Shown here: piece after piece, positions 14,195 to 20,016 of the stretch | How positions within the stretch are numbered: position 1 is the first letter of the stretch | Layout of the letters: every line of letters starts with the position of its first letter | DNA from: Sporomusa acidovorans | Lineage (GTDB): Bacteria > Bacillota > Negativicutes > Sporomusales > Sporomusaceae | Length of the DNA stretch: 64,000 nt | Assembly (NCBI RefSeq): GCF_900101845.1 | Contig: NZ_FNAM01000019.1 | Coordinates: 1 to 64,000 of the forward strand | Reading direction: 5' to 3' | Translations under genes and position numbers: made by a program | The notes under the pieces: generated by a model | Databases searched by the model: none | Seen by the model: only the letters and a program-made list of their open reading frames with translations | What the model was told of the DNA's origin: nothing

Positions 14195-14428
14195 TTAGCC
14201 TTGAATTAGTAATTTTATTTCATCCTTAGTTGGAACTTTCCCTTTCACCTTAACCACACCATCCACAACAAGTGCCGGTGTCGTCATAACTCCGTAGGCC
14301 ATGATGTCTTTCATATTATCCACTTTAACAATCTCTGCGTTAATTCCTAGTTCAGTCAAAGCCTCCATCACTCGTTCTGTGAGCGTATTACATTTTGCAC
14401 AGCCCATCCCTAAGACTTCAATCTTCAC
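14195..14428 (-). CDS. Small thioredoxin-fold redox-active disulfide protein (TM0996 type)
   Basis: 77 residues with KIEVLGMGCAKCNTL at the N-terminus, giving a CxxC redox centre at residues about 10-13, and the cis-proline region VMTTPALVVDGVV. Proteins of this type commonly sit beside ArsP/UPF0718 permeases and ArsR regulators, as here. It probably passes electrons or thiol-bound metalloid in the cytoplasm. It is the last gene of the ArsR-permease cluster. Confidence 0.88.
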   Translation of the reverse strand: MKIEVLGMGCAKCNTLTERVMEALTELGINAEIVKVDNMKDIMAYGVMTTPALVVDGVVKVKGKVPTKDEIKLLIQG

Positions 14429-14473: not shown

Positions 14474-14716
14474 CTATAACCCCACTGGGCAACCGTCAAT
14501 TACAACTACTTGATTGGCTTTTTTTGCCGCATCAATAAACGGCTGCATGCGTGCTGCAATGCCGGTAATACAGCTCATACTAGCCTGAGCAAAACCCTCA
14601 CGCCTTAATTTACGGCATGCCTGATCTGCAACTTCTCCTACATCTGCACAACCACCACAAGCATACATTATTCGAGATACCTCTTGAATTCCCCCGCAAT
14701 TACATCCACTTATAAT
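14474..14716 (-). pseudogene. Truncated DGC-domain putative zinc-binding protein
   Basis: The frame is about 80 codons, with an AGGAGG a few bases before 14716 but only ATT/ATA as start codons; an internal ATG is at 14668. The sequence has CNCGG, YACGGCADVG and ends VVVIDGCPVGL just where DGC proteins continue with a further Cys. DGC-domain proteins (about 110-190 residues) have several conserved cysteines and occur with metalloid-resistance genes. It looks truncated at the 3' end and perhaps at the 5' end. The intact relative is at 18989-19558. Confidence 0.55.
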
Positions 14717-14811: not shown

Positions 14812-15135
14812 TTATTTTAAAAATTTCAATAAACTCTGACTATGTCCAATCTGTTCACTTAATATTTGCTCTGCTACTCCGAGCAATTTTATTATAGAAG
14901 GGTATGCAATCCAATAGATCACACGCTGCCCGTCTTTTCTAGAATCAATCAGACCTTGTCTTTTGAGAATTCCAAGATGTTGTGAAAAATTTGATTGTTC
15001 AATATCTATTTCTTCTATCATATTACACACACACAGCTCTCCTTGGCTAAGCATATGCAAAATCTTAATACGTACCGGATGCCCTAATGTTTTAAATAGT
15101 TCAGCTGTCAATTTAACAACAATATCATCGGCCAA
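14812..15135 (-). CDS. ArsR family metalloid-responsive repressor
   Basis: 107 residues from a TTG at 15135 placed seven bases after AGGAGG; the in-frame ATG at 15171 is less well placed. It is a winged-helix domain with the metal-binding motif GELCVCNMIEEI in helix alpha-3 and the recognition helix QSNFSQHLGILKRQGLI. ELCVC is the As(III)/Sb(III)-sensing motif of ArsR. It is transcribed just after the permease gene and probably controls it and itself through the nearby palindromes. Confidence 0.9.
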   Translation of the reverse strand: MADDIVVKLTAELFKTLGHPVRIKILHMLSQGELCVCNMIEEIDIEQSNFSQHLGILKRQGLIDSRKDGQRVIYWIAYPSIIKLLGVAEQILSEQIGHSQSLLKFLK

Positions 15136-15208
15136 AATAAAACCTCCTAAATTCCCTTCGATAGAGATCAAATGAATATATTAATTATAACATCTTCTCT
15201 CTTTATGA

Positions 15209-16156
15209 TTAAATTATGAAATTAAAAAGATAACCTGTAAAGATAATCGCTACTGCCATTATCATAATAAAAATGGCAATCAGTTTTGGTTTTAGTACAT
15301 TGCGCAAAATAATCATTTCCGGAAAACTTAATGCCGTAACCGCCATCATAAATGCCAACGCCGTCCCAAGGCTCATGCCTTTTTGGATAAGCGCTGTGAC
15401 AATAGGAATAACGCCAGCAGCATTAGAGTATAACGGTACTCCGATTAAAACCGCCATCGGCACAGCCCAGATATTATCCTTGCCTGCGTATTGCACAAGA
15501 AAATCTTCTGGCGCATAACCATGGATAAAACCGCCAATTCCAATAGCAATAATTACATAGAGCCATACCTTTTTCAGAATTTCTTTCGTATAGTCCCGTG
15601 CATAGCAAAGGCGGTCACCAAATGTCTGCTCAACGATTTCAGTTTCTCCCACTTTCATTTGATACACATATTCTTCCACCAAATGCTCTAAATTACCTTT
15701 ACCGATTAGATAACCGGCAATAATCGCAATAGTGACGCCGGAAAGGATATAAATAACGGCAACTTTCCAGCCGAGCAACCCCCATAACATAACGAGTGCC
15801 ACTTCATTGACCATTGGTGAAGATATTAAGAAAGAGAAAGTGATTCCCAGTGGAACTCCGGACTCTATAAAACCAATGAACACTGGTACGGCAGAACAAG
15901 AGCAAAAGGGTGTAACGATACCTAACAAAGCAGCGACTATGTTCCCATATAATTCCCGCTTATGACTTAAGATTTTCTTTGTGCGCTCTGCTGGAAAATA
16001 TGAACGCAATATCGACACGCCGAAGATAATAATTGTTAACATAAGGAAAATTTTTATACTGTCATAGACAAAGAAATTAAGTGCTTCACCTAACATAGTA
16101 CCGGGCGCTAAACCCAGCCAGTGATAGATTAATAAGTCTGCAAATGTTTTTAACAT
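15209..16156 (-). CDS. ArsP/UPF0718 family permease
   Basis: 315 residues with about eight membrane segments. The hallmark GIVTPFCSCSAVPVFIGF (residues about 90-107) includes the paired Cys-Ser-Cys found in ArsP-type permeases. ArsP exports trivalent organoarsenicals; other members export different metals. The neighbouring ArsR regulator and CxxC protein support a metalloid role. Confidence 0.85.
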   Translation of the reverse strand: MLKTFADLLIYHWLGLAPGTMLGEALNFFVYDSIKIFLMLTIIIFGVSILRSYFPAERTKKILSHKRELYGNIVAALLGIVTPFCSCSAVPVFIGFIESGVPLGITFSFLISSPMVNEVALVMLWGLLGWKVAVIYILSGVTIAIIAGYLIGKGNLEHLVEEYVYQMKVGETEIVEQTFGDRLCYARDYTKEILKKVWLYVIIAIGIGGFIHGYAPEDFLVQYAGKDNIWAVPMAVLIGVPLYSNAAGVIPIVTALIQKGMSLGTALAFMMAVTALSFPEMIILRNVLKPKLIAIFIMIMAVAIIFTGYLFNFII

Positions 16157-16456: not shown

Positions 16457-17521
16457 TTATCCCTTCGCTTTTAACTTATCGGGAACTACAAAATACTTTC
16501 TAAAGCGTAACGCTACGTTAACCAAGCCAATCATAACCGGCACCTCAATAAGCGGTCCGATAACAGCGGCAAAAGCCTGCCCTGAATTGATGCCAAAAAT
16601 GGCTACAGCCACCGCAATCGCTAATTCAAAGTTATTACTGGCTGCCGTAAAGGATAATGTAGTTGTCTGCTCATAGTTTACTCCCACACGATGGCTCAGG
16701 TAAAAAGATACTAAGAACATAACAGCAAAATAGACAATTAGTGGAATGGCTATACGCACCACATCCATCGGTAATTTAATAATATAGCTGCCTTTTAGAG
16801 AAAACATAATCACAATGGTAAACAATAGCGAAATTAATGCCAACGGACTAATCTTAGGTATAAAAGTCTTTTCGTACCATTCACGTCCCTTTGCTGGCAA
16901 TAAGATGCGTCTTGTCAAATATCCGGCTACAAAGGGGATACCCAGATATATTGCCACACTCATAGCAACATCTTTCATGGACACCTGAATTTGCATGCCC
17001 GTAAAACCAATCCATCCTGGAAGTACGGTGATAAAAAAATAGGCGAACACGGAATATAATATAAGCTGGAAGATTGAATTAAGTGCTACCAGTGCGGCCG
17101 CATATTCATTATCACCTTCTGCCAACGAGTTCCAGATAATTACCATAGCAATACAACGAGCCAAACCGATTAGTATTAATCCAACCATGTAATCCGGTTT
17201 ATCTGGTAAGAAAATGATAGCTAGGGCAAACATCAATACCGGACCGATTACCCAGTTTTGCACAAGTGACAACAGCATAACCTTGCCATTATTAAATACC
17301 TTCCCGATTTCCTCATACTTTACCTTTGCTAATGGTGGATACATCATTACAATTAGGCCAATCGCAATCGGAATGGATGTTGTACCAATTGACAATGAAT
17401 CTAGCCACGCAGCCATCCCAGGAAAGAGATAACCGCCGCCAACGCCAATTGCCATTGCCAGGAAAATCCATAATGTCAAATACTGGTCTAGAAAAGATAA
17501 TCGTTTTTGAGTTTGCGTCAT
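16457..17521 (-). CDS. acr3: ACR3 family arsenite efflux transporter
   Basis: 354 residues with about ten membrane segments, the normal ACR3 length. Family motifs include [27 protein letters not shown] with the conserved N-W-x-x-G-P, and [15 protein letters not shown], which carries the essential cysteine. The protein exports As(OH)3 or Sb(OH)3 with proton antiport. It lies downstream of an ArsR gene with a 250-base gap that contains a palindrome and a dispersed repeat. Confidence 0.95.
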
Positions 17522-17642
17522 TTTACTATTCCCCCTTTACTTGTTATAGTATGAACTTTGAAGGTCTAACCCCATGCCTTCTTAGCTAATTCCGTATATT
17601 CACCTCCTTATTTGTAATATATAGATAGCATCAGAGCAATTT

Positions 17643-17666
17643 ATGATTAAAATTGATTTTAATCAT
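17643..17666. promoter_or_regulatory. Perfect inverted repeat upstream of acr3, candidate ArsR operator
   Basis: ATGATTAAAAT-TG-ATTTTAATCAT (11-bp arms) lies about 120 bases upstream of the acr3 start. A strong AAGGAGGTGA at 17602-17611 follows on the minus strand without a usable start codon, so the leader may be longer than it looks. Confidence 0.5.
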
Positions 17667-17676
17667 TTAAGTGTTT

Positions 17677-17763
17677 AGAAAACCCGGCTAACGCCGAGCC
17701 TTTGGCAAAAGCGCTAGCCGCTGGTTGCACTTATCCAGTCGAAAGTTATACTTTCTGGCTGGG
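17677..17763 (+). repeat. Dispersed repeat, copy 1 of 4
   Basis: Begins AGAAAACCCGGCTAACGCCG, continues with GCCTTTGGC, GCGCTAGCCGCTGGTTGCAC, then a second stem CCAGTCGAAAGT/ACTTTCTGGCTGG. Related copies are at 21680-21733, 44575-44671 (reverse) and 58118-58200. Read on the minus strand the first hairpin ends in TTTTCT, like a terminator. Confidence 0.8.
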
Positions 17764-17770
17764 CAAAAAA

Positions 17771-18130
17771 TTAATCGTCCGTAATTTTAACACTGAACTC
17801 GCAACTGCCACCTAAATCTCTGTATTTTTTTAACCTTATCAAATCCTTTTGACATTGTGGATCACTGTCCAATTCTTTAAGCAGTTCCTTTATGAAGGCA
17901 TACTGCTCCAGTATTTTTTCGTCAACCCGATAATATATCCACTGAGCTTGTTTTTTGCCAACAATAAGTTTAGCATGCTTTAACTTTGTTATATGGCGTG
18001 AGGCATTAGACTGGGTTAGTTTTAATATTTCTTCTAAATCACAGACACAGAAAGTATCTCTACATAGCAAATTCAACATTCTTATTCTGGTTTCGTCAGC
18101 CAAAGCCTTGAGTATCTCAATAATATCCAT
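17771..18130 (-). CDS. arsR: ArsR family metalloid-responsive repressor
   Basis: 119 residues from the ATG at 18130, preceded by GGTGA; a GTG at 18142 is an alternative. It is a winged-helix protein with the metal site DTFCVCDLEEIL and the recognition helix QSNASRHITKLKHAKLI. It differs clearly from the other ArsR at 14.8 kb. It lies directly upstream of acr3 and probably represses it, responding to As(III). Confidence 0.92.
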   Translation of the reverse strand: MDIIEILKALADETRIRMLNLLCRDTFCVCDLEEILKLTQSNASRHITKLKHAKLIVGKKQAQWIYYRVDEKILEQYAFIKELLKELDSDPQCQKDLIRLKKYRDLGGSCEFSVKITDD

Positions 18131-18284
18131 TATTCTCACCACATCCTATATATTAGATTGGTTCTGTTACATTTCATCTTTTATATCAGCAAAACCTATC
18201 TTGTATATGATTATATTCGCTTTTACTCATTTTTGTCAATTATTCTTTTGGCATCCATTACCAGACCTATACAACGTACTGAAC

Positions 18285-18357
18285 TTAAGATAATATATGT
18301 TCTTCTGATTTGCGTAGAATATACTCTTTAGCTGAATCCTCAATTGTTATCAACATA
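18285..18357 (-). pseudogene. Short remnant of a second HesB-like gene
   Basis: A 23-residue frame begins MLITIEDSAKEYIL, six bases after GAGGG, and stops at TAA. Its first 18 residues match the N-terminus of the candidate selenoprotein just upstream (MEFTIEESAREYIRCKSK), so it is a truncated paralogue. The C-terminal part was not found. Confidence 0.55.
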
Positions 18358-18404
18358 GTCTTCCCTCTACAGCTTTTCTCCGCTCTTCCAAAAGAGATAA
18401 AAAA

Positions 18405-18719
18405 CTACATTTTATCTCTTGCAACCAGTCGTTTGAAGAAGAAGATTTTTTCTATTTTTATCGTTAACCTTTTAAATATCTCGGCTACAGCTGGATGATA
18501 GTATACTTCAATTCCATCAATATTAACTTGTTGGTAATGAACGGCCTTATCAGATTTGCCCAATCGCACGGATGGGACACGCGGCGTTTGTCCGCCGCAG
18601 TTGCCGCCACTTCAAACCCCTCGTGGCCGTTCCACAACACTGATACTAATCGCCAACTCAGATGATTTTGACTTACACCGGATGTATTCTCTAGCTGATT
18701 CTTCAATTGTAAATTCCAT
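18405..18719 (-). CDS. HesB-like candidate selenoprotein with in-frame TGA (Sec36)
   Basis: The ATG at 18719 follows AGGAGG by seven bases. The frame encodes 104 residues if the TGA at 18614-18612 is read as selenocysteine (residue 36), ending at TAG 18407-18405. The peptide context is RPRGV-U-SGGNCGGQTPRV, and the frame stays coding-like afterwards (VNIDGIEVYYHPAV). From 14 bases after the TGA, GCGGCG and CGCCGC form a six-pair stem around the loop GACAAA, whose first base is G, as in bacterial SECIS elements. HesB-like selenoproteins are a known prokaryotic family. Scaffold or metalloid-binding chemistry is inferred. If not a selenoprotein, it is a nonsense pseudogene. Confidence 0.72.
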
Positions 18720-18988
18720 CTTGATTCCTCCTTAGCTTGAACTTGACTCGGATTTACCGATAACCGCCTGCTTTCTGATGCGATAGCAATACCTTTAATC
18801 CAAACGTTAAAAAGCGCACAACTTCTTGGGGAACCCGCGCGATTATTTTTATATCCCTGATCAAATATTTGTAATATAAGTACCAATACGAAAGTTTTCT
18901 TTTGCCTGAACATGCAGACCCTCAATATGCCAAAACAACTGATAAACTTCGAATTCTATGTTGACTCACGGTCAACCTATCACATTTG

Positions 18989-19558
18989 TCAGCCCTTGCC
19001 ATCGACATCGCCAATTTGTATCGCAACTCCATCTTTGACAATGACAGGTACTTTATCAGAACCATATCGATCTTTACACAATTTCTTAGCCCATGCGTGT
19101 ACACTTGTGTTGACTTCTTGAAAAGTAATCCCTTTCTCCTGGTATTCTTGGAGTTTCTCCGCCCCCTTTTCGGTAAGTTTTAAATCGGCTATTAATTTAC
19201 CAGCTATTTCGCAGATTTGCCTTTCTCCACTTTCGCTTAGTCTAACAACATTGCCTAGACTTACAGTATCAACACCGGCCACTAGGCGATCAATAGTATA
19301 TTCAATGTCAATATCGCCACCCATTATATCGACAATGTTGGATGCGCACATTTTATTACAACCATTGATAACAATACACGGTATATTGGTTATTGTTTGT
19401 ATCGCATCTATTTCTCCATTTACCAGATAGGCTAAACCAAGAAGTTTCGCCTGCTTATTCAGCTCTTCTTTCACCTTTAACGCTATTTCTTGTGTCATCA
19501 GGCCATAAACAGAATCAATGCCACAACATGGAATGATAACTAGCATTTTTTTATCCAA
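18989..19558 (-). CDS. DGC-domain putative zinc-binding protein
   Basis: 189 residues from a TTG at 19558 located seven bases after GGGGAGG. The N-terminus MLVIIPCCGIDSVYGL and the motif VINGCNKMCASNI place it in the DGC (four-cysteine) family. The C-terminal part, around residues 120-180, is charged. Such genes recur in arsenic and selenium clusters. A role in binding Zn or thiophilic metalloids is inferred. Confidence 0.75.
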   Translation of the reverse strand: MDKKMLVIIPCCGIDSVYGLMTQEIALKVKEELNKQAKLLGLAYLVNGEIDAIQTITNIPCIVINGCNKMCASNIVDIMGGDIDIEYTIDRLVAGVDTVSLGNVVRLSESGERQICEIAGKLIADLKLTEKGAEKLQEYQEKGITFQEVNTSVHAWAKKLCKDRYGSDKVPVIVKDGVAIQIGDVDGKG

Positions 19559-19631
19559 ATTACATCCTCCCCAATTAATTCATTAGAAGAAAACCGCGCT
19601 TAACCAGGTAAACAAATAGTTGAATATGATT

Positions 19632-19859
19632 TTATACCGGTCCACGCATCCGCCGAGAGGCCAGTTCGCATTCTTTAATCATTAGATTTTGTTCCGCAGT
19701 CAAAGGCTCCCCGTCCTCATACTGGGGTTCAGCAAAATAATAACAGTTAGATTTTTCTTCGGCAATTGCGTTTGATAACTCGAACTGATATTTAAGACAC
19801 CATAACTTTCCGTCAGCTAATCGATCAGCAATTCCACAAGAAAAACATTTTACTAACAT
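19632..19859 (-). CDS. Small Cys-rich protein of unknown function
   Basis: 75 residues preceded by GGGGGGATT. Cysteines lie in VKCFSCGIADR, LWCLKYQF and KSNCYYFAEPQY, a CxxC-Cx-C pattern suggesting a zinc ribbon or small Fe-S site. It is first in the minus-strand cluster that continues with the DGC protein and candidate selenoprotein. I do not recognise the family. Confidence 0.6.
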   Translation of the reverse strand: MLVKCFSCGIADRLADGKLWCLKYQFELSNAIAEEKSNCYYFAEPQYEDGEPLTAEQNLMIKECELASRRMRGPV

Positions 19860-19951
19860 GCTTAATCCCCCCTATTTTAATTTGGTCATTCAACCTAGTT
19901 GAGCAGGTTTGAAAAATATTTGCAAAATACTCGTATATTTTGAAGGAATTA

Positions 19952-20016
19952 TTTACACGATTACCAAATATAGGTATAATTAAATTGTATCATTAACTGT
20001 TTACATCGTCAACAGT
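19952..20016 (+). promoter_or_regulatory. Sigma-A promoter and possible operator of the MarR gene
   Basis: TTTACA (19952-19957), 17 bases, TATAAT (19975-19980). An inverted repeat ACTGTT/AACAGT at about 19995-20016 lies just downstream of the expected start, suited to autoregulation. Confidence 0.7.

Follow-up and report, generated by a model that had tools for sequence, protein, structure and literature searches.

The Locus and Its Genes

The window analyzed here, a stretch of 64,000 nucleotides from Sporomusa acidovorans (contig NZ_FNAM01000019.1, positions 1 to 64,000), carries on its minus strand a run of genes that opens with a small Cys-rich protein, continues through a DGC-domain protein to a predicted selenoprotein gene, and is followed by regulators, efflux candidates and a thioredoxin-fold protein (Table 1). 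The frame of the selenoprotein gene contains a single TGA and yields a product of 104 residues if this codon is read as selenocysteine (Sec). A strong ribosome site, AAGGAGG, lies a short distance upstream of the ATG, and the plus strand across 18405-18719 holds no open frame. The original prediction, a single open frame interrupted by one TGA (codon 36) and preceded by a strong ribosome site, is thus borne out. Just downstream, at 18285-18356 (-), a second family copy begins (MLITIEDSAKEYILRKSEE) and soon runs into a stop, which identifies it as a duplicate remnant.

Table 1. Coordinates of the genes and RNA features discussed in the text.
Feature	Position	Strand	Remark
Cys-rich protein, 75 aa, family unknown	19632..19859	minus	first gene of the run; homologue upstream in two other genomes
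DGC-domain protein	18989..19558	minus	upstream of selenoprotein gene; apparent chimera
CC/Se motif family (NF041239) selenoprotein gene (predicted)	18405..18719	minus	104 codons, TGA read-through
ATG start codon of selenoprotein gene	18719-18717	minus	
TGA, codon 36, predicted to be read as selenocysteine	18614-18612	minus	column Cys or Sec in homologues
Proximal hairpin UGCGGCG-GACAAA-CGCCGCG	18580..18599	minus	in inserted segment; loop not conserved
Conserved distal hairpin (putative SECIS) CCCAUC-CGUGC-GAU(U)GGG	18559..18576	minus	loop from 18570, bulged U 18562
TAG end codon of selenoprotein gene	18407-18405	minus	
ArsR/SmtB-type regulator	17771..18142	minus	
SBF-family carrier, ACR3-type arsenite efflux candidate	16457..17521	minus	
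ArsP_1-type permease	15209..16156	minus	recurrent neighbour of clade
Second ArsR-type regulator	14812..15171	minus	recurrent neighbour of clade
MTH895/ArsE-type thioredoxin-fold protein	14195..14428	minus	recurrent neighbour of clade

All neighbours listed in the original prediction (ArsR, ACR3, DGC and a CxxC-type protein) were located. At the site of the DGC-domain gene, Sporomusa sp. KB1 has two genes, which encode a 135-aa DGC protein and a DGC domain fused to a glutaredoxin-like domain with the motif CPFC; the single gene of the window looks like the product of a deletion that fused the first DGC with the C-terminal half of the DGC-glutaredoxin and removed CPFC. A truncated DGC-domain ORF (14474-14668, minus strand) lies between the second ArsR and the thioredoxin-fold gene; it ends in TAG, which rules it out as a further Sec-containing candidate.

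The tie to arsenic-type genes that had been proposed extends beyond the window: ArsP homologues, some of them distant or fragmentary, occur within 4 kb of six of the 14 genes of the window's clade and of none of the 89 other family genes fetched at the stage of this count, and additional loci of the clade supply more ArsP neighbours. In genomes G023 and G014 the gene order is selenoprotein (or its Cys form), ArsP, ArsR and thioredoxin-fold protein; the window differs in that an ArsR-ACR3 pair stands between the selenoprotein gene and the ArsP permease. DGC proteins are found upstream in a few loci as well, and so is the 75-aa Cys-rich protein. This arrangement resembles the Sao neighbourhoods (SaoE, SaoT and others; PMC13188914), in which selenoproteins accompany transport and thioredoxin-like proteins and are implicated in metal or metalloid handling. 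The window permease, however, reaches 130.8 with the SaoE model, whose cut-off is 325; of the Sao components, this comparison covers SaoE.

Predicted Selenocysteine at Codon 36

The original prediction had named two findings that would speak against it, a genome without selABCD and homologues without Sec or Cys at the position of the TGA. In the genome, selA and selB are adjacent and selD is also present, all above cut-off, and a tRNA-Sec gene (selC) scores 73.9 bits, so that all four components were found. Moreover, selD (contig C62:65508-66428, L054) itself carries an in-frame TGA and therefore probably encodes a selenoprotein as well. A partial SelB match at the end of another contig of the same genome (C89:34308-35189, L002) is probably a cut elongation factor Tu gene, since tRNA-like matches lie just upstream. 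As for the homologues, family members occur in 38 of 60 related genomes, often several per genome, and the codon-36 column of 98 aligned members, from which a few odd or partial ones had been excluded beforehand, consists of 59 TGA (Sec) and 39 Cys codons. About 18 switches between Sec and Cys are counted on the tree, compared with 32 expected from shuffles; the count is approximate because the tree rests on few columns and has many open forks. Among the named relatives, the nearest is Sporomusa sp. KB1, whose gene shares 84% identity and keeps the TGA; comparison of the two genes gives a dN/dS of 0.27 upstream of this codon and 0.15 downstream of it.

The Sec/Cys column, the purifying selection downstream and the full Sec machinery lead us to regard UGA as a sense codon. 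Judged by this comparative evidence, 18405-18719 (-) is almost certainly a genuine selenoprotein gene, with its product predicted from the sequence.

Family Membership and Predicted Fold

The protein matches NF041239 ("CC/Se motif (seleno)protein") over residues 1-99 with 49.3 bits (E 3.8e-13), above the curated cut-off of 40, and has Sec at the Sec/Cys position of the family. NF041239 is itself a listed selenoprotein family (PMC13188914), so the gene is an added member of a known family. Several paralogous clades have a C-U pair, whereas the window's clade has GGVU-S-G-G-(N/K)-C instead; within this clade, position 36 (Sec or Cys) and Cys41 are invariant. Two further loci deserve mention: in genome G008 (contig C128:200-490, L069), a family gene carries another in-frame TGA where the SECIS motif encodes Arg and is possibly a decaying copy, and in a region of G023 (contig C1:494776-514009, L147), several ArsR-type genes accompany two Cys members and one Sec member of the family, all three within 12 kb.

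The assignment to the established HesB-like selenoprotein family made in the original prediction had to be replaced by NF041239: the TIGR01911 model matches neither the protein nor anything else in the genome, and of 31 relatives it matches one, with an E value no better than 0.005. What stands is the HesB likeness of the predicted fold. A profile search of solved-structure sequences gave no match, and for this reason the fold was compared by structure: the top matches of the AlphaFold model (mean pLDDT 86) are all IscA/SufA/HesB proteins, among them IscA (Z 10.1 over 92 residues) and SufA (Z 10.1). The sequence-profile alignment to IscA is too weak by itself; Sec36 aligns at or beside Cys35 of IscA, with the exact register uncertain. 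Thus, the fold is like that of the IscA, SufA and HesB proteins of PF01521, whereas the sequence score (16.3 bits) stays below the Pfam gathering score of 26.3 and the C-terminal Cys-Gly-Cys ligands of IscA are absent from the protein and its clade.

Two Hairpins Downstream of the UGA

Two hairpins follow the UGA. The proximal one, which the original prediction had proposed as the SECIS element, is present as described: its first loop base, a G, lies 20 nt after the TGA, and its calculated stability is -12.9 kcal/mol. Against dinucleotide shuffles, the stretch 18560-18620 shows no excess of stability (z -0.38), but synonymous recodings of the encoded peptide seldom yield a G-loop hairpin of equal quality (p 0.01). 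The hairpin sits in an insertion found in the window's clade, between the TGA and the distal hairpin; this insertion, a difference from NF041239 in general, puts the loop of the putative SECIS some 39-42 nt past the UGA in most members.

The distal hairpin became apparent at the codon level: an initial scan for SECIS elements that allowed no bulge distinguished Sec from Cys genes weakly, and we consequently drew up a codon table for the region after the TGA. Sec genes encode the P-S-V-R-L-G stretch in nearly a single spelling, CCR TCC GTG CGA YTG GG, which is variable in Cys genes. At the Arg position, 37 of 45 Sec genes use CGA, compared with two of 29 Cys genes; outside the motif, the Sec genes use CGA less than any other Arg codon. 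As RNA, the motif folds into CCRUC-CGUGC-GAY(U)GG with a bulged U, a structure common to the Sec genes of the family: at least six consecutive base pairs (bulge aside) form in all 48 motif-bearing Sec genes versus three of 29 Cys genes, and about 1.1 pairs are expected from synonymous recodings; the other 11 of the 59 Sec genes were not captured by the motif search and have different arrangements. The Cys gene of G015 (contig C6) retains the full hairpin, as is expected after a recent change from Sec to Cys. The loop G and U are invariant among Sec genes. Three of the six stem pairs never vary, and concerted changes occur in others: the R-Y pair goes from G-C to A-U and the next pair from U-A to G-C. 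The covariation score, which may be inflated by relatedness, is 0.206 versus 0.110 in shuffles (none of 500 as high), and the hairpin pairing outscores every slid version of itself.

Because the hairpin model was derived from Sec genes and then scored on them, the independent evidence consists of the Cys genes, the synonymous controls and the genomes fetched later. These genomes come from across the wider phylum, and in most of them a CGUG loop recurs at about 24 nt on other stems; in two displaced members, L171 and L179, the stems are perfect and unbulged and lie at 39 and 42 nt, respectively, with six pairs in L179. The 17-base motif pattern occurs at 39 sites in the 60 genomes, and in the S. 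acidovorans genome it picks out the three TGA copies and nothing else. Rfam gave no match over 17500-20000, and in the part of the literature covered we found no description of the conserved distal hairpin. In the window gene, its loop starts at nucleotide 42 after the UGA, that is, with 41 nt in between. There is a G in the first two loop bases, and the spacing lies outside the 16-37 nt after the UGA of the published bacterial SECIS model (PMC13188914). We consider the distal hairpin very probably to be the SECIS of this gene, a putative assignment that rests on its conservation in Sec genes.

Alternative Readings

If the TGA were a plain stop, the part downstream would be a dead remnant, and a degenerate family remnant does exist nearby at 18285-18356. 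Yet this downstream part is under purifying selection and contains a conserved hairpin, Sec and Cys exchange at the codon-36 column, and the Sec machinery of the genome is complete, all of which makes a plain stop highly improbable. A SECIS in the proximal hairpin, with the distal motif conserved for the protein alone, has more in its favor: this hairpin fits the published rules for spacing, loop-first G and stability, its distance is better than that of the distal one, it is kept in Sporomusa sp. KB1 with one double change, and the insert hairpins of displaced genes outperform synonymous recodings by a modest margin (combined p 1e-6, with relatedness left out of account). However, its loop differs in almost every relative (GACAAA, GGCAAA, GCAAACACC and GAG), for which reason SelB is unlikely to read it. 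Moreover, paralogues without the insertion also lack the hairpin, and synonymous sites of the distal motif show conservation in Sec genes that Cys genes do not share. We therefore hold a proximal SECIS to be improbable, though less so than a plain stop; the slight excess of the insert hairpins over their controls allows for a structural role. A three-way junction whose closing helix would place the UGA beside the distal hairpin appears in several minimum-energy folds; it was rejected as no better than with the downstream part recoded synonymously.

Regarding the protein, it could be an A-type Fe-S carrier that uses Sec as one of its ligands and not a metalloid protein. The predicted IscA/SufA fold and the alignment of Sec36 with the region of IscA Cys35 point in this direction, as does the genome search, which yielded no PF01521 A-type Fe-S carrier. 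Against it, the C-terminal Cys-Gly-Cys pair of such carriers is missing throughout the clade, and the surrounding genes code for efflux and regulation and not for Fe-S assembly. We consider a carrier function unlikely and, given the missing Cys pair, favor binding or reduction of a metalloid by Sec36 and Cys41.

Proposed Mechanism and Role

Taken as a whole, we regard as probable an explanation in which the gene encodes an NF041239 selenoprotein with a HesB/IscA fold, a distal SECIS and a metalloid role. SelB with its Sec-tRNA would bind the distal hairpin at a spacing of 41 nt, and not the proximal one, which may compact the inserted segment. In the product, Sec36 and Cys41 may bind or reduce a soft metalloid, and the protein would serve the adjoining ArsP/ACR3 efflux and thioredoxin-fold proteins. 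The ArsP, ArsR, thioredoxin-fold and related neighbours of the clade suggest such metalloid handling; the narrower role of a metalloid-binding or -reducing accessory to efflux, drawn from these neighbours, has in our estimation an even chance of being correct.

Implications for the Family

Beyond annotation, the locus adds a conserved distal hairpin and a clade-specific ArsP neighbourhood. We are equally divided for and against a unified picture in which one family would use a C-G-U-G-loop SECIS at 23 to 41 nt after the UGA across its paralogues, with the accepted spacing limit exceeded in the window's clade and the extra segment folded as a hairpin of its own. If true, the paralogues would form a natural series for measuring UGA-SECIS spacing. 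The family separates RNA from protein constraint, because it is multi-copy, flips many times between Sec and Cys, and keeps the SECIS mainly while Sec is used. SECIS tools fixed at 16-37 nt can choose the wrong hairpin, as has probably happened in this gene. Finally, the clade-specific link to ArsP, ArsR and thioredoxin-fold proteins offers a testable role for an orphan selenoprotein.
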